Below are positions 43,771 to 54,382 of a DNA stretch of 64,000 nt, piece by piece (positions within the stretch are counted from its first letter, which is position 1; each line of letters begins with the position of its first letter). The stretch is from Streptomyces sp. NBC_01237 (lineage in GTDB: Bacteria > Actinomycetota > Actinomycetes > Streptomycetales > Streptomycetaceae). The notes beneath the pieces were generated by a model, which did not search any database, was not told the DNA's origin, and worked only from the letters and a program-made list of their open reading frames with translations. Made by a program: the position numbers and the translations under genes. The stretch lies in the NCBI RefSeq assembly GCF_035917275.1, contig NZ_CP108509.1:372001-436000 (forward strand). The letters run 5' to 3'.

Positions 43771-44595
43771 ATGATGGTGGCGTTGATCGACTCAGGGCTC
43801 GGCCTCCTTTCCACCACAGGGTGGCTTCGGCACCTCGCCCCGGAACTCGATCTGCTTCTGCTTCTGGACCCCGACGGCGCCCCCTGGGGATCGAGAACGG
43901 CCCCCTTCGTCACGGACCGTCTGTTCAGTGCGGCCCAAGTGGCCGTCCAGCGGGGCGCCGACGCCTTGGTGGTCCCCTGCAACACCGCGACCGTCACCGC
44001 GATCGACGCTCTGCGCGAGAGTTTTGAACCCCGTGTGCCGGTGATCGGAACCGTGCCCGCCGTGAAGTCGGCCGCGGCGGCCGGCCGAGCCATCGCCGTG
44101 TGGGCAACCGTCCGGACCACGGCGAGCGACTACCAGGCCCGCCTGATCGCGGACTTCGCGAACGGCCGGCCCGTCGCACGTATCGCATGCCCTGGTCTGG
44201 CGGAGGCGATCGACCACGGAGACACCGCCGCGGCGACGGAAGCGATCGCCGACGCGGCCGGGCGGACCCCGCGGAATTGCGACTCCGTGGTGCTGGGATG
44301 CACGCACTACCCCCTGATGGCGCCCGAGATTCTGCGGAGCCTGCCCACCGGAACCACCCTGTACGACAGCGCGGAGGCGGTCGCCCGCCAAACGCTGCGG
44401 CGATTGGACCGGGCAACGCCATCGCACGGCACCACGGGCGCCATCGACGTGCTGCTCAGCGGTCGCCACGGAGATCTCCCCGCAGGCGCCCACTCCTACC
44501 CCGTGGGCCGCGCCCTGGCCGCCGCGGCGCGGGTGCCGCGCGACATTCTCATGACCGCCGCAACTCGGGCCTCGATGAACGCTCCGGCGTTCTGA
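43771..44595 (+). CDS. Glutamate racemase-like (Asp/Glu racemase) enzyme
   Basis: A 274-residue enzyme of the MurI family, from ATG 43771 (ATG 43774 is next). Visible active-site motifs are LIDSGLG at the N-terminus, PCNTAT with the first catalytic Cys near 71, and LGCTHYPLM with the second Cys near 180; the VIGTVPAV strand lies between. MurI makes D-glutamate for peptidoglycan. The opening lacks the usual VFDSGxGGL, and this is an isolated gene outside the rph/dtd-like neighbourhood usual for murI, so it may be a second copy used for a specialised D-amino acid. No ribosome site is seen. Confidence 0.85.
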   Translation: MMVALIDSGLGLLSTTGWLRHLAPELDLLLLLDPDGAPWGSRTAPFVTDRLFSAAQVAVQRGADALVVPCNTATVTAIDALRESFEPRVPVIGTVPAVKSAAAAGRAIAVWATVRTTASDYQARLIADFANGRPVARIACPGLAEAIDHGDTAAATEAIADAAGRTPRNCDSVVLGCTHYPLMAPEILRSLPTGTTLYDSAEAVARQTLRRLDRATPSHGTTGAIDVLLSGRHGDLPAGAHSYPVGRALAAAARVPRDILMTAATRASMNAPAF

Positions 44596-44626
44596 TCGAG
44601 CGCCGGAACCTCCACAGCTTCGCCGC

Positions 44627-44645
44627 CCGGGGGTACGGTCCCCGG
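44627..44645. terminator. Small hairpin between convergent genes
   Basis: ccggggg pairs with tccccgg (one G-T pair) over the loop tacgg. It sits between the convergent racemase-like and aminopeptidase genes and may end both. Confidence 0.35.
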
Positions 44646-44671
44646 ATTCGGAGGCCGAGCATCTCGCCTCG

Positions 44672-45490
44672 TCAGCGTTCGGTCGCCGACGGTTCCCGCC
44701 GGTCCTCCAGCCCCTCGTCGCGCCGAGGGCGCTGGGTGAGCACGAGCGGGCCGCTCTCGGTGATGGCGACCGTGTGTTCGGAATGGGCGGTACGTGAGCC
44801 GTCGGCCGAGCGGATCGTCCAGCCGTCGGGGTCGTAGACGATCTTGTTGGTGGAGCGGGCGAACCAGGGCTCGATCGCTATCGTCAGTCCGGGGCGCAGC
44901 TTGAAGCCGCGACCGGGCCGGCCGTCATTGGGTATGTGCGGGTCCTCATGCATGGTGCGGCCGAGGCCGTGACCGCCGAATTCCAGGTTGACCGGGTAAC
45001 CGTAGTCCGAGGCGACCGCGCCGATGGCTGCGGAGACATCCCCCAGCCGGTTGCCGGGCCGGGCAACCTCGATCGCGGCTTCCAGCGCGACCTCGGTGGC
45101 CCGTATCAGCCGCAGGTCCTCCTCGGCAGGCGTGCCGACGATGACGGAGTACGCCGAGTCGGCGACCCAGCCGTCGATGCCCACAGCCATGTCCATGCTC
45201 AGCAGGTCCCCGTCGCGCAATGTGTAGCTGTGCGGCAGACCGTGCAGAACGGCGTCATTGACCGAGAGGCACACCACATTGCGGAAGGGGCCGCGACCGA
45301 ACGAGGGTGAGTAGTCCCAGTAGCAGGATTCCGCGCCGCGCTCCTTGATCCGACGGCGGGCATGGTGTTCCAGGTCCATCAGATCAACACCCACCGCGGC
45401 GAGGTCACCGAGCTCCGCCAGCACCTGCCCGATGAACTGACCCGTGACGCGCATACGTTCGATCTGATCGGGAGACTTGAGCTCGATCAC
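44672..45490 (-). CDS. map: Type I methionine aminopeptidase
   Basis: A 272-residue enzyme that trims the initiator Met. The M24A ligands are visible: His of VLHGLPH (substrate), Asp in LSMDMAVGIDG, Asp in VADSAYSV, His in FGGHGLGRTMHEDPHIPN, Glu in IAIEPWF and Glu in SEHTVAI. The full set is present, so it should be active. It starts at ATG 45490. Streptomyces carry more than one map; this copy is not next to the secY-adk-infA genes and faces an XRE-like regulator across tandem palindromes, so it is the regulated accessory copy, an inference from position. Confidence 0.95.
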   Translation of the reverse strand: MIELKSPDQIERMRVTGQFIGQVLAELGDLAAVGVDLMDLEHHARRRIKERGAESCYWDYSPSFGRGPFRNVVCLSVNDAVLHGLPHSYTLRDGDLLSMDMAVGIDGWVADSAYSVIVGTPAEEDLRLIRATEVALEAAIEVARPGNRLGDVSAAIGAVASDYGYPVNLEFGGHGLGRTMHEDPHIPNDGRPGRGFKLRPGLTIAIEPWFARSTNKIVYDPDGWTIRSADGSRTAHSEHTVAITESGPLVLTQRPRRDEGLEDRREPSATER

Positions 45491-45520
45491 TGGCGATCCT
45501 CGATTTCCAGATGGCGTGAA

Positions 45521-45551
45521 GGTATTTTTATACCGGAGGTATTTTTATACC
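45521..45551. repeat. Tandem palindromes, candidate operator/promoter
   Basis: Two identical copies of ggtatttttatacc start at 45521 and 45538, a 17-base period. Each is a GGTAT/ATACC dyad around four T, and on the minus strand reads as a TATAAA-like -10 element. The pair is AT-rich in an otherwise GC-rich region. It lies between the divergent map (start 45490) and XRE-like (start 45602) genes, as expected for a shared operator. Confidence 0.7.
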
Positions 45552-45601
45552 AGATGGTGGAGTGGTTGTCGTCCGAAGGATGTGGCCATACCGTGGTCCG
45601 C

Positions 45602-45940
45602 ATGGTCCGTCATCCGCTCGCCCCCGAACAGATTGACGCGGGACGATGCCTCGGGGCCTTCCTGCGCGACGCCCGGGGCGGGCGTCGCCTCGTCGAGGTG
45701 GCCCTGGCAGCGGGCATCTCACCGGAAACCCTCCGCAAGATCGAGACCGGTCGGCTGCCGACGCCCGCGTTCGGCACCATCGTCATGCTGGGCGAGGTGC
45801 TCAGCATCTCGCTGCCCCGGCTCGCGGACGCCTGGCGCGCCGGTCTGATCCAGCACGAAGGCGTCGCCGCTCCGGTGGCCGGTGCGGTCGGCACCGCCGC
45901 CACGCATCCGGTGGTGCCCTCCGGTGCTGGGCTCTCTTGA
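45602..45940 (+). CDS. XRE-like helix-turn-helix regulator
   Basis: A 112-residue DNA-binding protein from ATG 45602 (GTG 45593 is the alternative). The HTH is about residues 15-70: RCLGAFLRDARGGRRLVEVA, then LAAGISPETLRKIETGRLPT, which has the XRE recognition-helix look, and FGTIVMLGEVLSISLPRLAD. The C-terminus is an Ala/Val-rich tail. It diverges from the methionine aminopeptidase gene over tandem palindromes, which are its likely operator. Such map-adjacent regulators are seen in other actinomycetes as far as I recall; the signal is unknown. Confidence 0.85.
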   Translation: MVRHPLAPEQIDAGRCLGAFLRDARGGRRLVEVALAAGISPETLRKIETGRLPTPAFGTIVMLGEVLSISLPRLADAWRAGLIQHEGVAAPVAGAVGTAATHPVVPSGAGLS

Positions 45941-46128
45941 CGTACCCGTAGGGGAAGAGCATCCCGCTGCGCCCCCGTTGCCGCTCAAGGATCCATCAGC
46001 GCCACCCGCCGGCCTCCGGGCCCGCGAAAAATCTCCGGGAAAAGTCGCGCCGTCGGCGATGAGTTCCGTCGGGGTGCGCGGTCCAACTACATGACAGCAA
46101 GTGATAGCCAATATTGCAGGAGCACCTC

Positions 46129-46680
46129 ATGCGGAAGATCATCGCCGGTCTGTTCTCGTCTCTGGACGGCGTGGTGGAGGCCCCGGAACTGTGGAACATG
46201 CCGTACAGCAGCAGCGAGACGGGCGCGGCCCTGATGCGGCTGTTCGAGGACGCCGACACCGCTCTCCTGGGCCGCAGCACCTACCAGCAGTGGAGCTCGT
46301 TCTTCCCGCACGCGTCCAACGAGCAGGTACCCACCGCGGACTGGATGAACTCCTCCCCCAAGTACGTCGTCTCCTCCACACTCACCAGCGTGGATGAGTG
46401 GAAGAACAGCAACTTGGTCACCGGGGAGGACATCACCGGTCAGATCCGGGCGCTGAAGGAGCAGCCCGGCGGCACCATCAATGTCGGCGGCAGCATCACC
46501 CTGGTCCAGTGGCTGATGCGCAACGGCCTGCTGGACGAGCTCTACCTGCAGATCAACCCGGTCGTCGTCGGCACCGGGCGCACCCTCGCCGGCGGTGAGC
46601 AGATCCCCCTGACGCTGGCATCCAGCCACACCTTCGCCAACGGCGTCATCGAGGCCCACTACAGCCTCCAGGCTCGCTGA
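46129..46680 (+). CDS. Dihydrofolate-reductase-fold (RibD C-terminal) protein
   Basis: A 183-residue member of the DHFR/RibD_C-like family found in many actinomycete copies, from ATG 46129 with AGGAG seven bases upstream. It opens RKIIAGLFSSLDGVVEAPE, has LLGRSTYQQW, KYVVSSTLTSVDEWKN, then GTINVGGSITLVQWLMRNGL and DELYLQINPVVVGTGRTL. These are the usual NADPH-fold strands, with the GG motif near 121-122. The enzyme activity of the group is unknown; some reduce pterin- or flavin-like compounds. It converges with the methyltransferase gene, with a strong terminator between. Confidence 0.9.
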   Translation: MRKIIAGLFSSLDGVVEAPELWNMPYSSSETGAALMRLFEDADTALLGRSTYQQWSSFFPHASNEQVPTADWMNSSPKYVVSSTLTSVDEWKNSNLVTGEDITGQIRALKEQPGGTINVGGSITLVQWLMRNGLLDELYLQINPVVVGTGRTLAGGEQIPLTLASSHTFANGVIEAHYSLQAR

Positions 46681-46793
46681 CCCCCAGCACCGAGTCCGTA
46701 CGGCCGGAGCTGAGCACCCGCCGACGCACAGTGCAGCCGGGTCCGGCCTCCGAGCCGCCCGCCGGGGCTGACTCCTCTGTTCTCCGGCCCTTG

Positions 46794-46828
46794 CGCCCGC
46801 CGCCCCCACCTGGTGGGGGCGGCGGGCG
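46794..46828. terminator. 17-bp perfect hairpin, bidirectional terminator
   Basis: 46794-46810 pairs fully with 46812-46828, leaving only one base at the centre, so a realistic loop is made by opening the last two or three pairs. It separates the convergent DHFR-fold gene from the furan-operon methyltransferase and ends that operon. Confidence 0.85.
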
Positions 46829-46858
46829 TTGTCGGCGGCCCGGTCGTCTACGGGAGCG

Positions 46859-47794
46859 CTACGGTCGGGGCTTGTTCGCGAACACCCATCGGTTGCCCTC
46901 CAGTGCGTCGTTCCGCTCGGGCAACGGGCCGCGTCCGTGCCGGCGGGTGAAGTCGAAGGGAGTCCGGACCGATGTGGACCAGCCCTTGCGTGCCAGATCA
47001 CCGACGGAATCGGGCCGCGGCTCCCTGTCGAAGAGGCTGAGCAGGTCGATGCCGATCTGCTGTGCCGTCGAGGTGTAGAGCGGGCTGTCGCGGTACTCCA
47101 GCAAGTCCTTTTCGACCTTGACCTCGAACGCCAGGGCGCTTCCTTCCGTACTGAGCCGGTCCACCGTGTCGATGAGGTACGTCTCGGCGGCGGCGGGCAG
47201 GTAGAACATCAGTCCCTCCGCCAGCCAGACGCTCGGTGCGGCCGTGTCGAAGCCGGCGTCGGCCAGCGCTCCGACCCAGTCGGCGCGCAGATCGATCGGG
47301 ATGGGTACGCGCGTTGCCTTCGGGGTGGCCGACAGTCCGTCGAGCACCTTGTGCTTGAACGCCAGCACCCCTTCTCTGTCGATCTCGAAGATCACACAGC
47401 CGGGAGGCCAGTCGAGCCGGAACGCCCGTGAGTCCAACCCCGCTCCGAACAGGACGACTTGGCGGGCGTTCCCCGTGTGCACCGACAGGAGGAGAAAGTC
47501 GTCGAGGACCCTCGTCCGCAGACCGAAGTAGCGCGCGAATCGTCCCCACAGCGGGTTCGCTTCCCCGTCCGGAACCTGTTGCACACGCACCGGCCAGTCG
47601 GCGGACGCCGGTGTGGCGAGCACGAAGTGCTCCGCGTAGACGTCCTGTGCCAGGCTGTCGTGGCGGTGTGTCTCGATCGCTCTTGCCGCGGCGACCATGA
47701 GGGCGGTCAGGCCGACACCTCCTTCCACCCCCTCCGTGCCCTCCACGTCTTGCTTGCCTTCCACCTCGGTGTTCCGAGGCGTAGTACCGAACAC
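46859..47794 (-). CDS. LCM-type (leucine carboxyl) SAM methyltransferase
   Basis: A 311-residue class-I methyltransferase from GTG 47794, with GGAGAG five bases upstream. An acidic Gly/Glu linker (residues 10-27) precedes the LCM/PPM1 domain: TALMVAAARAIE, YAEHFVLAT, then the SAM loop VVLFGAGLDSRAFRLDWP at about 113-130, FEIDREGVLAFKHK, and ADWVGALADAGFD with SVWLAEGLMFYLPAAAE. The last segment is the substrate lid. Members of the family methylate carboxyl or hydroxyl groups of small molecules and peptides. It lies 160 bases after the alcohol dehydrogenase in the same direction, so it may methylate the acid made by the operon, which is an inference. Confidence 0.9.
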   Translation of the reverse strand: MFGTTPRNTEVEGKQDVEGTEGVEGGVGLTALMVAAARAIETHRHDSLAQDVYAEHFVLATPASADWPVRVQQVPDGEANPLWGRFARYFGLRTRVLDDFLLLSVHTGNARQVVLFGAGLDSRAFRLDWPPGCVIFEIDREGVLAFKHKVLDGLSATPKATRVPIPIDLRADWVGALADAGFDTAAPSVWLAEGLMFYLPAAAETYLIDTVDRLSTEGSALAFEVKVEKDLLEYRDSPLYTSTAQQIGIDLLSLFDREPRPDSVGDLARKGWSTSVRTPFDFTRRHGRGPLPERNDALEGNRWVFANKPRP

Positions 47795-47954
47795 GTGCTC
47801 TCCTTCGGACGAGTTGAGACCCACGAACAGCGAGGAATGCGAGTGATGGATCGGTGGTGGCCTCACAACGCCACCTGTCCGGGCGCCCCGACATGGTCTG
47901 CCGACGGCGCACGGTCAGAGCCGGTCGGGTGGGGAGCGGTGTCCAATGCCTCGC

Positions 47955-49058
47955 TCATCGGATCCTCCCCTCCGGAAGCAGGACGGGTTTGACCACGCGG
48001 CCCGCGTCGCAGTCACGTTCGGCCTCGTTGATGTCGGCCAGTGGATAGGTCCGGATCAGCTCGTCGAAGGGAAACCGCCCGGCCTGCCACAGCCCGGTCA
48101 GCCGCGGAATCAGCAGGCCCGGAACCGCGTCCCCCTCGCAGATGTGGGAGATCCTCCTGCCCCGGTCCAGTGCCCCCGGTTCGAGCGACAACGCGGTGTG
48201 GAGCCGTGCCACCAGGCCGAGATGGCCGGTCGGGCGCAGGGACCGGAGTGCGTCGTTGATCAGCCGGGCGGAGGCCGTGGTATCCAGCGCGTACTGCGCG
48301 CCACCGTCGGTCAGTTGCTGGATACGACCGGGCAGACCCGCTGTCGTCGCATGGAGCGGGACCGCGCCGAATCGTTCGGCGAGGGCCAGCCGTTCGGGGT
48401 GCCGGTCGACGGCCACGATCACAGCTCCGGAGGCGGCGGCCGCCATCACCGCGGCCAGGCCCACCGCTCCTGCGCCGAAGACCGCGAGGGTGTCACCGGG
48501 CCCGACGCCGAAGGAGTTGAAGACCGCACCGGCACCGGTGAGGAAGCCGCAGCCGAGCGGCCCGAGCAGTTCGATGGGCAGCGAGGGGTCGGCGCGGACC
48601 GCGTTGCGAGCCGGAACCACCGCGTACTCGGCGAACGAGGACTGGCCGAACCACCGGGGGGCCAGTTCGTCTCCGGCCGCGTCGATGAGCCGCGCGGCGC
48701 TCTCCTTGCGCCCTCCGAAGAGGTTGAGCGAGGCGAAGGAGTCACAGTAGGCGGGGGCAGCGCCGATGCAGTTCCGGCAGTGTCCGCAGGAGTCGAAGCT
48801 CAGCACCACGTGGTCACCGTCGCTCAGGCCGGTGTCCGGACCGCCCGTCTCCACCACGACCCCGGCCCCCTCGTGACCGAGCACCGCGGGCAGCGGTGAG
48901 CGGCCTGCCGAACCCCGGACCGCGAGATCGGTCCGGCACATTCCGCAGCCCGCGATCCTGACCAGGATCTCGCCTTCGGCCGGTCCCGTGTTCAGGGTGA
49001 CCTCCTCGACAGCGAATCGGCTCTCGTACGAGCGCAGTACCGCCGCGTCGAACCGCAT
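47955..49058 (-). CDS. Zinc-dependent alcohol dehydrogenase (aryl/benzyl type)
   Basis: A 367-residue medium-chain dehydrogenase from ATG 49058, preceded by GGAGGAGG and two bases after the aldehyde dehydrogenase stop. Catalytic zinc ligands are C41 (GCGMCRTDL), H62 (GHEGAG) and a third Cys near 170 (LGCGFLTGAGAVFN). The structural zinc is held by C91, C94, C97 and C105 (CGHCRNCIGAAPAYC). The NAD loop is VFGAGAVGLAAVMAA, with the acidic VAVDRH favouring NAD. The CGHCRNC form and the LNLFGGRK loop match aryl-alcohol dehydrogenases. In the operon it would oxidise a furan hydroxymethyl group or reduce an aldehyde. Confidence 0.93.
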   Translation of the reverse strand: MRFDAAVLRSYESRFAVEEVTLNTGPAEGEILVRIAGCGMCRTDLAVRGSAGRSPLPAVLGHEGAGVVVETGGPDTGLSDGDHVVLSFDSCGHCRNCIGAAPAYCDSFASLNLFGGRKESAARLIDAAGDELAPRWFGQSSFAEYAVVPARNAVRADPSLPIELLGPLGCGFLTGAGAVFNSFGVGPGDTLAVFGAGAVGLAAVMAAAASGAVIVAVDRHPERLALAERFGAVPLHATTAGLPGRIQQLTDGGAQYALDTTASARLINDALRSLRPTGHLGLVARLHTALSLEPGALDRGRRISHICEGDAVPGLLIPRLTGLWQAGRFPFDELIRTYPLADINEAERDCDAGRVVKPVLLPEGRIR

Positions 49059-49060
49059 CG

Positions 49061-50464
49061 TCAGGCCTCCTCCGGACGGTGCACGACGAACGGCCTGAGG
49101 TTCCCGTAGAGCCCCCACATTCCGCCCGCGACACCGACACCACTCTCCTTGGTGCCCGCGAAGGGCTGGGCGAGGGACAGTTCCGCGTGGTGGTTGATCC
49201 ATGCCGTGCCGCACTCCAGCCGGTCCGCGACCGCCTCCGCCCGGTCGAGATCCGTCCCCCATACCGAGCCGCCCAGCCCGAAGCCGGTGTCGTTGGCAGC
49301 CTCGACGGCTTCGTCGATGCTCCCGTACGGCAGCACGGGCAGAACCGGACCGAACTGCTCCTCCATCACCACGGGGCTGTCGGGCGGGACATCGGCCAGG
49401 ATCGTCGGGGCGTAGAAGTAGCCCGGTCGGTCCAGCCGGTGGCCACCGGCCACGGCTCGGGCACCGTCCGCCAGTGCCTGGGCCGTGTAGCGCTCGACCC
49501 TGGCCAGTTGGGGGACATTGTTGAGCGGGCCCAGCTGCGTGCCCGGGTCGAGGCCCGCTCCGACAACGACGGTCCTCGCGCGCTGTGCGAGGGCCTCGAC
49601 CACGTCGGAGTAGAGCCGGGCCGGGGCGTAGACGCGCTTGACCGCCATACAGACCTGCCCGCAGTTGCGGAACGCCGCCCAGAACAGCCGGTCCGCGATC
49701 CGCTCCACATCCACGTCCTCCAGCAGGATGGCGGCGTCATTGCCACCCAGCTCCAGGGTGACGCGGCCGAGTGACGCCGCCGCACCCTGCGCGACGGCCC
49801 GTCCGGTCGGAATCGAACCGGTGAAAGTCACATGACGGATCCCCGGATGCGAGGCCAGGCGGGCGCCGAGCGGTTCGTGACCGGTGACGATCGTCAGTAC
49901 GTCCTCGGGGAGGGCGGTGGAGAGGACGGATCCCAGCAGCCGTGTGGCGAGGGGCGTGAATGGGGAGGGCTTGAGCACCATCGTGTTGCCTGCGGCGAGC
50001 GCGGGCGCGAACTTCGCCGAGGCGAGCTGGAGGGGAAAGTTCCACGGGACGATCGCGGCGACGGGCCCGACCGGTCGCCAGCGGATCTCACTGCGTACCG
50101 GCCTGCCGTCCGTGATGGGTTGGGGCCCGGGGTCGAGCTCGGCGAAGTAGCGCAGGCGGGCCGCTGTGCGAGCGATCTCCGCATACGCCTCGGCCAGGGG
50201 TTTGCCCTGTTCACGGGTGAGCAGGGGGGCGATGTCCGTCCCGGCCGCGTCCACGGCGTCGGCTGCCGCGAGCAACGCGGTGGTGCGGGCTGAGCGGTCG
50301 GCCCGCCAGCCGCCCCATGCCTCTTGGGCCCGGCCGACGACGGCGTCCAACTCGTCCGGCTGCTGCTCGGGGGCCTCCTCGAAGGCCTCGCCCGTCGCGG
50401 GATCGAGGACGGCGAAGCGCTCCCCGAGGGTTCCGGGCGTGTGCCGGCGCTGTTGTGTCACCAT
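49061..50464 (-). CDS. Aldehyde dehydrogenase (NAD(P)-dependent)
   Basis: A 467-residue ALDH from ATG 50464, eight bases after the mfnB stop. Catalytic C272 sits in NCGQVCMAVKR, the general base is E238 in LELGGND, and N142 is in the oxyanion motif VPWNFPLQ. NAD-binding TFTGSIPTGRAVA and the late PFAGTKESGVGV are standard for the family (succinate-semialdehyde/betaine-aldehyde type). The whole active site is intact. Placed directly behind mfnB, the likely substrate is the furan carboxaldehyde made by that enzyme, giving a furan carboxylic acid; that assignment is an inference. Confidence 0.94.
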   Translation of the reverse strand: MVTQQRRHTPGTLGERFAVLDPATGEAFEEAPEQQPDELDAVVGRAQEAWGGWRADRSARTTALLAAADAVDAAGTDIAPLLTREQGKPLAEAYAEIARTAARLRYFAELDPGPQPITDGRPVRSEIRWRPVGPVAAIVPWNFPLQLASAKFAPALAAGNTMVLKPSPFTPLATRLLGSVLSTALPEDVLTIVTGHEPLGARLASHPGIRHVTFTGSIPTGRAVAQGAAASLGRVTLELGGNDAAILLEDVDVERIADRLFWAAFRNCGQVCMAVKRVYAPARLYSDVVEALAQRARTVVVGAGLDPGTQLGPLNNVPQLARVERYTAQALADGARAVAGGHRLDRPGYFYAPTILADVPPDSPVVMEEQFGPVLPVLPYGSIDEAVEAANDTGFGLGGSVWGTDLDRAEAVADRLECGTAWINHHAELSLAQPFAGTKESGVGVAGGMWGLYGNLRPFVVHRPEEA

Positions 50465-50472
50465 GCCCGCGG

Positions 50473-51228
50473 TCAGCCCGCGGCAGCGACAGCAGCTGCC
50501 TGTTCCCGGGCATGCCGGTCCATCTCCGCCCTGAAGGCGGCCACCAGCTGCGGCTGGATCCTTCCGGTGGTGCGGTCGCCTCCCTCGCAGACCGCCCCGC
50601 GCACCCCCACGATGTCCGTGCCGATGCGGGTCAGCGCGTCGAGGTCTCCCACCTTCACGCTGCCCGCGAGGGCGGCGAGCAGACCGGCCTCGTGGGCCCT
50701 CCTGACGAACTCCGCGCAGACCTCTGGCGGAACGTGGTCGAACAGTCGTGTCCCGTCCTTGACCGCGGTGTCGAGCATGGCCGCGTCGGAGCCGGAGCGA
50801 CGGGCGATGTCGGGCAGTGCGAGCGGGTTGACGCAGCCGATCCGGTGGGCGTCGGCATAACCCGAGGCGACAACGAACGCGTCCGGCCGATAGTCCTTCA
50901 CCGCCCGGACGACCCCGCGCATGACATCGATGGCCTGTTCGGGCGTCGTGCATCCGTAGAGGCCGACCTTGATGTAGGTGGCTCCGGAGACAGCCGCGCC
51001 GAGCGCCGCCTGGGCCACCGTGCCGGGCTTGTACGGCACGTCTCCCACGGTGGCGGACACCGGCTTGTCCGCGGGGATCGCGTCGCGGATCTCCCTGATG
51101 ACCCACGGGAAGTTCGCGCCGAGCGAGCCCTCATCGGGCCTCTTGACGTCGACGATGTCAAGGTGCTCCGCCGCCTTCGCGCAGTCGAGGGCTTCCTCGA
51201 CGCTGTCCGGGGAGATGAGAAGCAACAA
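50473..51228 (-). CDS. mfnB: MfnB homologue: (5-formylfuran-3-yl)methyl phosphate synthase
   Basis: A 251-residue enzyme of the MfnB (DUF556) family. In methanogens it joins two glyceraldehyde 3-phosphates into 4-(hydroxymethyl)-2-furancarboxaldehyde phosphate, the ring of methanofuran. The match is strong throughout: [67 protein letters not shown] and [15 protein letters not shown]. The catalytic K29, K87, D153 and K157 line up with the lysines and Asp known for the Methanocaldococcus enzyme. I start it at TTG 51228, with AAGGAG six bases upstream; ATG 51249 precedes that site and would be wasteful. It leads the furan operon. Confidence 0.92.
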
Positions 51229-51360
51229 CGTGGACTCCTTGCACCGCATGTCCTGGCCAAGAGGCAGGCGTGCGAAGTCGCCTGGATGCCTTGCGGTTCG
51301 CTCATCATTGCCGCGGCTCGTGACCACCGGTAGGGCGTGCGGAGTCCGAACGGGTAGGGA

Positions 51361-51381
51361 ACGGCGCAACCAACGCGCCGT
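51361..51381. promoter_or_regulatory. Hairpin in the mfnB leader region
   Basis: acggcgc and gcgccgt flank the seven-base aaccaac, a perfect 7-bp stem 133-153 bases upstream of the mfnB start. A 10-bp palindrome, ggttcgaacc, follows at 51389-51398. Either may be an operator or leader structure; neither resembles a known riboswitch. Confidence 0.4.
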
Positions 51382-51426
51382 GCACGCCGGTTCGAACCAG
51401 CACCCGCACAACCGCGGGATCCGAAG

Positions 51427-51448
51427 CCAACCATCAGCGATCGGTTGG
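51427..51448. promoter_or_regulatory. Inverted repeat upstream of mfnB
   Basis: ccaacc and ggttgg are separated by ten bases, about 200 bases before mfnB and 57-78 bases beyond the end of the neighbouring unknown gene. The caaccaac loop of the nearby hairpin repeats the half site. A regulator dimer could bind here; no regulator gene is adjacent. Confidence 0.35.
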
Positions 51449-51504
51449 GACCTGCTGAGCGGCGAGCCGCCGCCCGACAGGTATCTCAGCGAGGATGCGG
51501 CACG

Positions 51505-52041
51505 TCAGCCCTCGTCCGAACCGGACAGAGCTTCGGCGATCATGCGGGTGGCGAAGTCCGAGTCGTCGGTGATGCGGTTGATGTGCTCCGCGAGCAGGAA
51601 AGCGGTGACTTCCAGGGGCGTCATCTCCTCCTCAGTCCACTCTCCGTACTGTTGACGCCACAGGTTGGGGCTCAGACCGGTCCCCGCGGCGATGACCAGC
51701 CCGGCCATGGTGGGGACGGCCTCGGGGCGGACGCTCCTGGGCATCATGCGCATCGTGGCCACAAGCGTGGGCACCACGTACTCGATGACGTCCTTGTCAT
51801 GGTCCTCGTGGGCCTTCCGCAGCCACGTCATGAACATGAAAATGAGCGTGCACGCCCCGTCCAGCAGGTCCTTGGCTCCCTCCGGGCCCAGTGTCGCGGT
51901 GAACTGGTCCATCAGCGCCTGTTGTTCGGCGTCGGTCTCGGAGTTGCCGTCGTGGATGCTCTTGAGCCGAGAGTCGATCACCATGAGCGCCGCTCCCACA
52001 TCGCCGGCGGGAGCATGCTGGGGGTCGCAGGGCGATGACAC
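51505..52041 (-). CDS. Hypothetical protein upstream of the furan operon
   Basis: A 178-residue acidic protein I do not recognise. It starts at GTG 52041, with AGGAGG six bases upstream; longer forms are Arg-rich artefacts. It looks mainly alpha-helical, with helices such as TDAEQQALMDQFTATLGPEG and TWLRKAHEDHDKDVIEYVVP, and LVIAAGTGLSPNLWRQQYGE in the second half. There is no signal peptide and no membrane segment long enough to be convincing (LIFMFMTWL is short). It faces the same way as mfnB, but 276 bases separate them, so a shared transcript is uncertain. Confidence 0.7.
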   Translation of the reverse strand: MSSPCDPQHAPAGDVGAALMVIDSRLKSIHDGNSETDAEQQALMDQFTATLGPEGAKDLLDGACTLIFMFMTWLRKAHEDHDKDVIEYVVPTLVATMRMMPRSVRPEAVPTMAGLVIAAGTGLSPNLWRQQYGEWTEEEMTPLEVTAFLLAEHINRITDDSDFATRMIAEALSGSDEG

Positions 52042-52535
52042 AGGATTCCTCCTCGGATGGCTGCGCTGAGCAGCGCGGCGTATCCGTACAGTAAACGGCC
52101 GACGGGACACGGACCGGTGGGTTGTCCGCATCCCAGGAGACACCGACTACGCGTTCTGGTCTCGTGTGCCGAGTCCGCCCTTGCGGCAGGCCGCCCCGGC
52201 GGTGGCCTGCCCGGCGCGGACGACCGGCCGGGTCAGCCCGGCCGCTCGTGGGGATACGTGCGGCGGCGCCCCGAGGAATGATCACTGAATCGAGTGTCGG
52301 ATGCGCGATCCGATATGCCCTCAGGGTGCCTGGCTCCATTCCGAGGGAGCGACGAGACGAGTTCACCGAGAGGGCTTCGCCGGCTCATGACCACGACGGT
52401 GCAGGAACGCCGTCACCGTCCAGTACGAACGTGAATGCCACACCGTGCACGCCAACCACGACGGCTGTCCGGACTGGACGACTGCCGGAAGCTCGCCGAC
52501 CGCTACGCCGACGGTGGGCCAGGGCCGAATTCCTC
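52042..52535. other. 494-bp gap without an intact gene
   Basis: No convincing gene. A plus-strand frame reads VTVQYERECHTVHANHDGC around 52420-52480, which has protein-like composition, but it has no start and is broken on both sides, so it is a possible remnant. The first bases hold the promoter of the unknown gene at 51505-52041. Confidence 0.35.
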
Positions 52536-53162
52536 TCAGGCCCCGTCGGCCGCACCGCCTGCCCCCGGGCGCAGCACCGGCAGTCCGGCTCGCAGGCGTT
52601 CCAGGAACTCCGGCACGTCGATGCTCTCGCCTTCCACGTCGACGACCTCGGCGACGAACGACTCCACGATGTTCGCACTGCCGAAGTCCGCGTCGTCATC
52701 GTGGCCGTAGTTGTCCACCAGGCGGGCACCAGGAGCGGAAACGCGGAGATCGTGGTCGTAGTTGATGACCCATGGGGTCTCGATGGTGCGGGTCTCCAGG
52801 ATTCCGTGGTTGTAGTCGCCGTAGACAAGATGCGTGAAGGTGCCCTCCTGGATATAGATCTCGCAGTCACCACCCTCCAGGGTCTCCGCCCGGGTGGTAC
52901 CGCCGACGTAGAGCCCCGGCAGAGACCCGTAGAGCGCGATCGGACCGGACACCGTCAGATCGCCGGTGACGACGACCAGGTCCACGCCGTCCAGACTTCC
53001 GATCCCGGCGACGGCTTCGAGGAAGCCCCCCTCCAGGACCAGATCGCCGTCGAAGAGCAGGACGTCGTCGTATTCGCGCTCGAAGGAGGCGGAGAGAGCC
53101 GGCACGAGACGGGTGTTGGCCTCCGCGAAGGAGAGGCGTTCGGGTACGGAGTTCTTGGTCAT
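52536..53162 (-). CDS. Repetitive beta-rich hypothetical protein
   Basis: A 208-residue protein from ATG 53162. From about residue 30 it is a run of short strands separated by Gly/Asp turns (DLVVVTGDLTVSGPIALYGS, GLYVGGTTRAETLEGGDCEI), like a bactofilin or right-handed beta-helix. It ends in an acidic helix, DVPEFLERLRAGLPVL. There is no signal peptide. I do not recognise the family; relatives with polymer-forming-cytoskeletal or leucine-rich-repeat annotation are possible. It stands alone between two gene-poor stretches. A low proportion of Cys and the cytoplasmic look suggest a scaffold or immunity-type role, which is a guess. Confidence 0.7.
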   Translation of the reverse strand: MTKNSVPERLSFAEANTRLVPALSASFEREYDDVLLFDGDLVLEGGFLEAVAGIGSLDGVDLVVVTGDLTVSGPIALYGSLPGLYVGGTTRAETLEGGDCEIYIQEGTFTHLVYGDYNHGILETRTIETPWVINYDHDLRVSAPGARLVDNYGHDDDADFGSANIVESFVAEVVDVEGESIDVPEFLERLRAGLPVLRPGAGGAADGA

Positions 53163-53596
53163 GCGGGCGACAATAGGACACGGGTACGACAGTCTTTCGA
53201 TGTCCTTCTGGTCATCGGGCGCACGGCCCTGTTCCCGGGCCCGCAGGCGGAGGCCGTTCGGCCCTCCGGAACACAGCGGAAGCCGCACACCGGTCGGCCT
53301 CGGTCGAGGTGGGACGCGCTCGGCGACGCGGCTTCGACGCCGCAACCGACGCGAACGCACGACCTGACCCTGACGGCGTAGTGGCGCAACTGCCCCGGGA
53401 CCTGACCGTCCTCCGGGGAGTGGCCGCGGGCGCCCGACGCCTCTTGTCCGACGCACGCAATGCCGGCCGCCGCGAACCGAGTGGTGCCTCAGCTGTAACG
53501 CGCCGTCACCAACACCCCTTACTGGACGGCGAGTCCGTCATGCGACGATACGATCAGGCCAACTGGCTTACAAATGCGGTGAGTATGGAGACAAAT
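53163..53596. other. 434-bp gap before the methyltransferase
   Basis: The plus-strand frame stays open through this stretch, but its product is Arg/Ala-rich and unlike the family, so I leave it out. Near 53560-53590 the sequence turns AT-rich (cttacaaatgcgg), with TACAAA as a possible -10 for the methyltransferase. Nothing else is recognisable. Confidence 0.35.
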
Positions 53597-54382
53597 ATGA
53601 GCAGCAACGACGCCGACTTCCGTAGGCGGATCCGATCGGACGTGCCGCACTCCGCACGGGTGTGGAACGCTTGGCTGGGTGGTAAGGACAACTACCCGGT
53701 TGACCGTGACCTGGCCGACGCGGTCAGCGCGGCCTACCCGCAGATGGTCGACATCGCCCGGGCATCGCGTGCGTTCCAGATTCGCGCGGTCCGGTACCTG
53801 GCCGGGCTGGGTGTGCGTCAGTTCCTGGACGTGGGAACCGGCCTGCCGGTGGAGAACAGCACTCACGAGGTGGCGCAGAACATCGTGCCCCAGGCGCGGA
53901 TCGTCTATGTGGACAACGACCCGATCGTCCTGGTCCACGCCGCAGCGCTGCTGACCAGCGCTCCCGAGGGCCGGACGGAGTATGTGGAGGCGAACCTGTC
54001 CGAGACGGATCAGGTGGTGGACGCGGCCTCCGGGACGCTGGACCTGTCGGAGCCGGTGGCTGTAATGCTGCTGTCGACTCTTGGACACCTGTCCCCGGCC
54101 GACGGCATCGACGTCGTCCAGCGGTATATGTCCCGCATGCCGTCGGGAAGCTACCTCGTACTGTGCGACACGGTGAAGACGCCCGCCACGCTGGCCGCCG
54201 AAAAGGCGTACGCATCGGGCGACAACCCTCCTTACCTGGTGAGGGAGCCCGAGGAGATCACCGGATGCGCCGAAGGTCTGGAACTGGTTGAGCCGGGCTT
54301 CGTTTCGATCGCGCAGTGGCGGCCGACGGACGAGGAGCCGGTCCTCGTCGACCAGTGGGGACTCGTCGCCCGCAAGCCGTAA
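53597..54382 (+). CDS. SAM-dependent methyltransferase, PF04672-like
   Basis: A 261-residue protein of the actinomycete Methyltransf_19 (former DUF574) group. I start at ATG 53597, with GGAGA five bases before it; ATG 53585 and 53540 are alternatives. The family opening RIRSDVPHSARVWNAWLGGKD is followed by NYPVDRDLADAV, then a SAM loop QFLDVGTGLPVENSTHEV, IVYVDNDPIVL and later LLSTLGHLSP. The NSTHEVAQ segment is a hallmark of this family. Streptomyces genomes hold dozens of copies with unknown substrates. The gene stands alone. Confidence 0.92.
   Translation: MSSNDADFRRRIRSDVPHSARVWNAWLGGKDNYPVDRDLADAVSAAYPQMVDIARASRAFQIRAVRYLAGLGVRQFLDVGTGLPVENSTHEVAQNIVPQARIVYVDNDPIVLVHAAALLTSAPEGRTEYVEANLSETDQVVDAASGTLDLSEPVAVMLLSTLGHLSPADGIDVVQRYMSRMPSGSYLVLCDTVKTPATLAAEKAYASGDNPPYLVREPEEITGCAEGLELVEPGFVSIAQWRPTDEEPVLVDQWGLVARKP

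Follow-up and report, generated by a model that had tools for sequence, protein, structure and literature searches.

A mobile, mfnB-led gene cassette of Streptomyces and a proposed route to a small 2,4-substituted furan

The 64,000-nucleotide stretch of Streptomyces sp. NBC_01237 analyzed here, called the window (contig NZ_CP108509.1, positions 372,001 to 436,000), carries four enzyme genes in a row on the minus strand, running from 51228 to 46859. The first gene, mfnB (50473..51228), encodes a (5-formylfuran-3-yl)methyl phosphate (4-HFC-P) synthase of 251 aa when read from a TTG codon and 258 aa when read from an ATG at 51249. It is followed by the genes for an aldehyde dehydrogenase (ALDH; 49061..50464, 467 aa; PF00171, 5.6e-136), a zinc alcohol dehydrogenase of the benzyl-alcohol type (ADH; 47955..49058, 367 aa; PF08240 and PF00107), and an LCM/TIGR00027-type S-adenosylmethionine (SAM) methyltransferase (MT; 46859..47794, 311 aa from a GTG start; PF04072, 6.6e-51). 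The gaps between them are 8 nt (mfnB-ALDH), 2 nt (ALDH-ADH), and 160 nt (ADH-MT). This cassette is a self-contained, horizontally moving unit, and the evidence leans, by a modest balance of probability, toward a mobile pathway for a small 2,4-substituted furan unrelated to methanofuran. The gene content, common direction, and gaps given in a preliminary description of the sequence were all confirmed, and family searches agree with them.

Co-inheritance and mobility of the four genes

Two sets of loci were compared. The first (L002-L081) comprised the best 80 of 297 mfnB relatives in GTDB contigs, and all of its records are named Streptomyces, Kitasatospora, or Actinacidiphila. All four genes were found in 71 of these 80 loci, while ADH and MT were each found in every one. 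The second sample was an even draw of 249 genomes from the family, among them the window's own, and was not selected by similarity. PF04476, the family of MfnB, gave 57 matches in 56 of these genomes, and cassette-type mfnB (E below 1e-76) was present in 50. Six of the 57 matches were partial and distant, and they belonged to five genomes with nothing else and to the cassette genome G209. The window's genome (10.19 Mb) has a single PF04476 gene, which is the window's mfnB. The even-sample loci (L082-L131) are the 49 cassette-type mfnB loci besides the window's together with that of genome G071, and 45 of these 50 contain all four genes. The incomplete ones are L121, which by its coordinates lies on the S. 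cattleyicolor megaplasmid and is without ALDH; L110 and L130, which are cut by contig ends with 390 and 221 bases left; and L119 and the G071 locus, which are weighed with the contrary evidence below. The two sets share genomes (for example, L003 and L101), so that counts pooled from them (120, 115, 129, and 130 rows) duplicate some entries unless these were identical.

In reciprocal searches, for which only the best 8-9 candidates were scored per genome, MT orthologs of at least 74% identity were found in exactly the 50 mfnB genomes and in none of the 199 others, where the best match reached 69%. ADH at E<=1e-130 was detected in 49 of the 50 and in none of the 199. Genome G074 (76% complete) was missed by the ADH search, yet it has an 82% ADH match beside its mfnB. 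The check proposed in the preliminary description, co-conservation of the genes in other actinomycetes, was thus strongly positive. This near-perfect co-inheritance indicates that the four genes form one functional unit. To that extent the operon proposed earlier stands, but the evidence is against a fixed linear operon: MT has the opposite orientation in 12 of 80 and 15 of 46 loci and is unlinked in one genome, and 9 of the 80 loci have only a partial ALDH or none that was detected. The genes that stay constant are thus mfnB, ADH, and MT, with ALDH usual in the cassette but apparently replaceable. At least 400 residues of ALDH were covered in 71 of 80 loci, in a few of them in pieces (for example, L015 and L038); L015 was counted as positive though in pieces, and L012 as negative though it has a 44%-identical fragment, under the 55% limit. 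The persistence of ADH and MT without an intact ALDH suggests that the ALDH step is either dispensable or provided by the host.

The genes around the cassette are not carried along with it. Among the 1295 genes called in the 80 loci, the only product besides those of the cassette that recurs in more than five loci is an EF-hand protein of ~177 aa (28 of 80). An mfnB of 86-96% identity was found in 12 plasmid records, 10 from Streptomyces and 2 from Streptantibioticus cattleyicolor, and the two plasmid annotations inspected contain all four genes and the EF-hand gene. In the 100 loci with all four genes, the pairwise protein distances of the genes correlate (r 0.70-0.79), and their pN/pS values of 0.19, 0.29 (ALDH), 0.32, and 0.34, from 150 random pairs each, denote purifying selection. 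A chance neighborhood of the four genes was ruled out by the unshared flanks and the co-inheritance in the 80-locus and 249-genome samples. As a separate observation, an insertion-sequence-type transposase, recognized by eye, lies between ADH and MT at L022 (13337-14521) on the opposite strand, and both genes are intact.

Enzymes of the cassette and the region before mfnB

Solved structural relatives were found for all four cassette proteins. MfnB matches PF04476 at 1.2e-80, with family-model scores of 271 against 22.4 bits and, for NF002573, 398.5 against 341 bits, which is above the cut-off. Its match to MJ1099 of M. jannaschii (4RC1) has a value of 1.2e-83, with 139 identities over 229 aligned residues (61%). 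D27, K29, K87, D153, K157, and R219 were invariant in 130 sequences, an alignment of the two overlapping locus sets and the window from which L131 (52%, under the 60% filter) was left out. In the numbering of the catalytic residues of MfnB, we take the corresponding positions to include D25, K85, and D151. An excerpt of PMC6604932 describes two lysines and two aspartates as essential, with the Schiff base at Lys27, and passages of PMC11365854 describe Lys155 and R217. The residues described as essential correspond to invariant ones, and the window-type MfnB therefore keeps the catalytic residues. The cassette enzyme resembles the methanogen MfnB in family, catalytic residues, and length, but differs in its setting, as its gene is grouped with ALDH, ADH, and MT and no kinase, aminotransferase, or other methanofuran gene recurs beside it. 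Its identity is 44-52% to the proteins of L131, L135, and L136 and 35% to that of Azospirillum; with 61% to the methanogen enzyme, these relations suggest that the mfnB of the cassette may have descended from an archaeal-type gene.

The nearest solved structures of ADH were 5tnx and, second, the benzyl alcohol dehydrogenase 1f8f, and the latter match bears out the label "aryl-type" that had been given to ADH from the sequence. C41, H62, C91, C94, C97, and C105 were present in 100% of 111 ADH sequences. C41 and H62 are presumably the ligands of the catalytic zinc and the four other cysteines those of the structural zinc. In ALDH, C268/C272 and E238 were invariant in 115 sequences. MT scored 246.8 bits with TIGR00027 against a cut-off of 93.55, and its motif GAGLD.RA, which we take to be the SAM-binding site, was 99-100% conserved in 126 sequences. 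In preparing these alignments, 14 further ADH rows running past the C-terminal stop, one MT row with an internal stop, and short matches were dropped.

The TTG start of mfnB at 51228 is preceded by AAGGAG at a distance of 6 nt. Across 120 distinct mfnB leaders, conservation of the AAGG core is 96-97%, and every start codon is NTG, with T as the first base in 74%. An in-frame ATG at 51249, 21 nt upstream of the TTG, is the start chosen in some public annotations of relatives, and it is not certain which of the two is the true start. In the same 120 sequences, ~190 nt before mfnB are conserved (51229..51412, minus strand, non-coding, with a short hairpin before the ribosome site), while further upstream conservation ends and the flanking genes differ. 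This leader contains a promoter-like element of two boxes (51300..51338, minus strand), GCGCCCTACC and AATGATGAGC, which was found in 103 of the 120 leaders with a gap of 19 nt in 71 and 20 nt in 32. In a scan of 5.2 Mb of strand (the loci, both strands counted), all strong matches to its weight matrix were in front of mfnB; 100 were assigned to mfnB leaders automatically and 6 more by their position in the loci. The matrix was built from the same leaders, and the informative part is the absence of matches elsewhere. A larger two-box regulon was rejected, as the IUPAC pattern gave 5 sites in the window's genome (one before mfnB) against 3 for the reversed pattern and the matrix matches were confined to mfnB. 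A consensus scan of 44000-54000 listed no sigma-70-type promoters.

A riboswitch or other known RNA was also considered for the leader and rejected, because no Rfam family was found in it, its folding is weak, and most of its pairs are near-invariant. At thresholds up to E 1, Rfam gave a single match (E 0.77), located upstream of the leader and not in it. In 115 sequences, folding energies were only a little lower than those of shuffles, with a mean z of -0.87 for -65..-1 and -0.39 for -65..+12, and three regions farther upstream gave 0.15, -0.44, and -0.04. When the consensus fold of the 115 sequences was put through a crude column-shuffle test, z was -5.2, but most pairs hardly vary; some paired changes occur in the hairpin before the ribosome site. 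The mfnB leader is read as a putative dedicated promoter or operator rather than a demonstrated RNA switch.

At the other end of the cassette, the preliminary description had placed a strong terminator. A perfect inverted repeat of 17+17 nt is indeed present (46794..46828, minus strand) between MT and a convergent RibD_C-domain gene and makes a probable terminator, but no T run follows it, and the repeat was absent from the listing of the terminator consensus scan. Within the gap between ADH and MT, a 31-codon open reading frame (ORF; 47863..47958, minus strand) starts in an ATGA overlap at the ADH stop codon. The ATG overlap was seen in 10 of 13 hand-picked relatives, of which L006 and L112 share the same peptide, and the peptides of the window and these relatives are often alike in their first residues (MSEA..) and divergent thereafter. 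This ORF may encode a coupled small peptide or be the remnant of a lost gene. Elsewhere in the window (44672-45940), a type I methionyl aminopeptidase gene on the minus strand overlaps a plus-strand helix-turn-helix ORF by ~130 bases as called; the true start of this regulator is probably further inside its ORF.

Proposed pathway and competing explanations

In the proposed pathway, MfnB would condense two molecules of D-glyceraldehyde 3-phosphate to (5-formylfuran-3-yl)methyl phosphate, from which a housekeeping phosphatase would free the hydroxymethyl group; this enzyme is assigned to the host because no phosphatase recurs in the cassette. The benzyl-alcohol-type ADH and ALDH would then take the ring substituents through the alcohol-aldehyde-acid series, in which host paralogs could stand in for ALDH, and the LCM-type MT would esterify the ring carboxylate. 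The product would be a small, probably released compound along the lines of methyl 4-(hydroxymethyl)- or 4-formyl-furan-2-carboxylate, or else of a furan-2,4-dicarboxylate ester. The MfnB condensation and a dedicated pathway outside methanofuran are together held with good confidence. That the final step is a carboxyl methylation is nearly an even question, tilting slightly toward the negative, and MT as a carboxyl methylase is a guess. A methyl ester of a 2,4-substituted furan carboxylic acid is the best guess for the product class, and any one of the named products taken singly is unlikely to be the right one. The preliminary description had the dehydrogenases oxidize the furan aldehyde and also the hydroxymethyl group, with the methylase capping a carboxylate, roles that are plausible as far as membership of the enzyme families goes. 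An excerpt of PMC11607399 gives a comparable route, proposed in Acinetobacter, in which aryl/benzyl-type ADH and ALDH serve the furan alcohol-aldehyde-acid series, and cites areB as overexpressed on furfural.

Several observations weigh against the furan pathway. The best matches of ALDH in the PDB include aminoaldehyde, semialdehyde, phenylacetaldehyde, and betaine-aldehyde enzymes and give no pointer to furans. The TIGR00027 model of MT names no substrate, and a sister clade of MT adjoins quite different enzymes. ALDH is partial in 4 of the 80 best-match loci and undetected at 55% identity in 5, so the cassette need not make an acid on its own, and no phosphatase is among the recurrent neighbors in the 80 loci. 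In genome G126 (L119), MT is located elsewhere in the genome and not beside the cassette, and genome G071 (L131) has a full-length mfnB, 52% identical, without a cassette. No reported activity, metabolite, or mutant was found in the open-licence literature for any of the four proteins.

Some of these points would fit a different reading, with a hydroxyl (which would yield a methoxymethyl furan) or another partner as the target of MT, with ADH working as a reductase, and with a reduced furan alcohol or ether as the product in place of an acid ester. This explanation, which draws on the nine loci with partial or undetected ALDH beside a constant ADH and MT (80 of 80) and on the unnamed substrate of TIGR00027, is considered unlikely. 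ALDH is kept over at least 400 residues in the other 71 loci and is under purifying selection (pN/pS 0.29), so that an oxidation step is usually retained, and the members that gave the LCM Pfam family its name methylate carboxylates. If the MfnB homolog instead ran a different aldol reaction, the cassette would make a small molecule other than a furan. Class I aldolase-type TIM barrels switch substrate easily, and Pfam gives MfnB a weak second hit, below cut-off, to the BKACE family (E 0.00096); the invariance of the essential residues in 130 sequences, the 61% identity to a characterized enzyme, and the passing of the equivalog model make this distinctly improbable. The four genes might also co-occur through a recent spread of neighbors without joint function. 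Their patchy distribution (50 of 249), the plasmid copies, and the 84-98% identity of MfnB to that of the window agree with such a spread, but it is very unlikely, given that flanking genes are not carried along, MT is retained when inverted or unlinked, the dedicated leader is conserved, the divergence of MT from the window's reaches 30%, and intact ADH and MT orthologs without mfnB were found in none of the 199 genomes.

Methanofuran itself was rejected as the cassette product because a partner enzyme is missing from the 16 cassette genomes tested and because of the neighboring genes. Formylmethanofuran:H4MPT formyltransferase (FTR, PF01913) was found in none of the 16 cassette genomes tested (of 50) and is absent from G071 too, whereas it is present in both non-streptomycete genomes of the phylum with a full-length mfnB (G290 and G515) and in two methanogen controls. 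Across the phylum, PF04476 matches occurred in 6 of 396 genomes, and 3 of the 6 are from the window's own genus. No MfnC/MfnE-type, kinase, aminotransferase, formyltransferase/hydrolase, or formylmethanofuran dehydrogenase gene recurs beside the cassette in the 80 loci. The set of methylotrophic bacteria resembles the cassette in having a bacterial mfnB, but the methylofuran set on an Azospirillum plasmid (L159) combines its mfnB (~35% identical) with an aspartate/glutamate/uridylate kinase, DUF447, and fhc/formylmethanofuran dehydrogenase genes, and an amino-acid-kinase-family gene adjoins mfnB in L136. A 4-HFC-P synthase is named beside methylotrophy-type genes in Burkholderiaceae in a portion of PMC9088363. 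Thus, even with an MfnB that is close to the methanogen enzyme and above the equivalog cut-off, a methanofuran-like one-carbon cofactor is scarcely credible as the product of the operon. The earlier remark that the bacterium has no known need for methanofuran agrees with a host that appears to be without the methanofuran machinery.

Related clusters and significance

MTs of 57-69% identity were found in 18 places in the 249 genomes, and 13 of these (L138-L150) were examined, with Pfam run on one example of each partner. An Iso_dh (isocitrate/isopropylmalate-dehydrogenase-like) protein was found in 12 of the 13 loci, an EF-hand protein in 11, and an isochorismatase-family hydrolase in 9. This sister cluster resembles the cassette in its MT of a neighboring clade (58-69% identical) and often in the same EF-hand family, but no matches to mfnB, ALDH, or ADH were found in the 13 loci, and the 13 sister MTs form a group apart from 30 cassette MTs (28 sampled at random), with a support of 100/99 for the separating branch. 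The EF-hand gene, of the same family in both cluster types, lies beside the cassette in 28 of 80 loci and 7 of 50 even-sample loci. Among 26 hand-picked genomes, it occurred in 12 of 20 with the cassette (beside the cassette in 6 of these 12, a figure biased upwards because three of the genomes were chosen after the gene had been seen) and in none of 6 without it; in the window's genome, no EF-hand gene of the cassette family was found at E<=1e-25. The MT/EF-hand pair is combined with two different sets of small-molecule enzymes. The use of MT in both clusters fits, without proving, a role in finishing small acids. No description of the sister cluster (EF-hand, Iso_dh, isochorismatase, and MT) was found in the open-licence literature.

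Other mfnB-like genes of streptomycetes were noted in passing. The mfnB of the G071 locus (L131, 1110-8158) is of another streptomycete type and has neighbors unlike those of the cassette, namely an AMP-binding/short-chain-dehydrogenase fusion, a class I/II aminotransferase, an amino-acid-kinase-family protein, and a UbiA prenyltransferase; this cluster perhaps makes an aminomethylfuran natural product by MfnC/MfnE logic. Distant MfnB-like matches, covering PF04476 positions 1-122 or 1-123, were seen in L132 (4916-6352), L133 (5251-6678), and L134. The open frames that contain such matches have 443-592 codons and come from six genomes, all of one genus, among them the cassette genome G209. The match in L133 was confirmed by Pfam and is followed by a sugar/MFS transporter gene.

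A parallel in chemistry is the AHFCA/methylenomycin furan system of S. coelicolor. An excerpt of PMC6604932 shows the likeness, namely a furan carboxylic acid of Streptomyces with a 4-hydroxymethyl group and a proposed origin from triose phosphate. Unlike in that system, no regulator gene recurs beside the present cassette; AfsA/MmfL-like, MmfH, and MmfP proteins were not seen to recur among the neighbors in the 80 loci, in which MmfL homologs were not searched for. The cassette could make a hitherto unknown class of diffusible furan esters that resemble the methylenomycin furans but have a separate biosynthesis and serve as a signal or volatile between streptomycetes, with an archaeal-type furan synthase recruited from cofactor synthesis and the EF-hand/MT cluster as a parallel that makes a different acid ester, although this extension is speculative and rather doubtful.

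No functional study of the cassette or its product was found in the open-licence literature. In S. coelicolor, the genes up-regulated in an abrB mutant included mfnB (SCO6440), which was among the three of them chosen for reverse transcription quantitative PCR (RT-qPCR), according to an excerpt of PMC7581861, and SCO6439 appears in a part of PMC2631018 as a putative DNA-binding protein up-regulated by acid shock. The listing of SCO6437 under "dipeptide biosynthesis" in a section of PMC6414726 has no bearing on the cassette, nor do passages of PMC10364804 on a different domain of unknown function (DUF). As far as the searches show, each enzyme comes from a known family, while the combination, its inheritance as a unit, and its use outside one-carbon cofactors are undescribed in the open-licence literature searched.

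Enzymes that build a furan ring are few, and about one in five of the sampled streptomycete-family genomes (50 of 249) would have a dedicated mobile pathway that starts with one. The set has only four genes, so that expression of the whole in a laboratory host is feasible. The cassette could lead to the discovery of a new group of metabolites or signals in Streptomyces, and its MfnB, bacterial and mesophilic, could be used to make 2,4-substituted furans.

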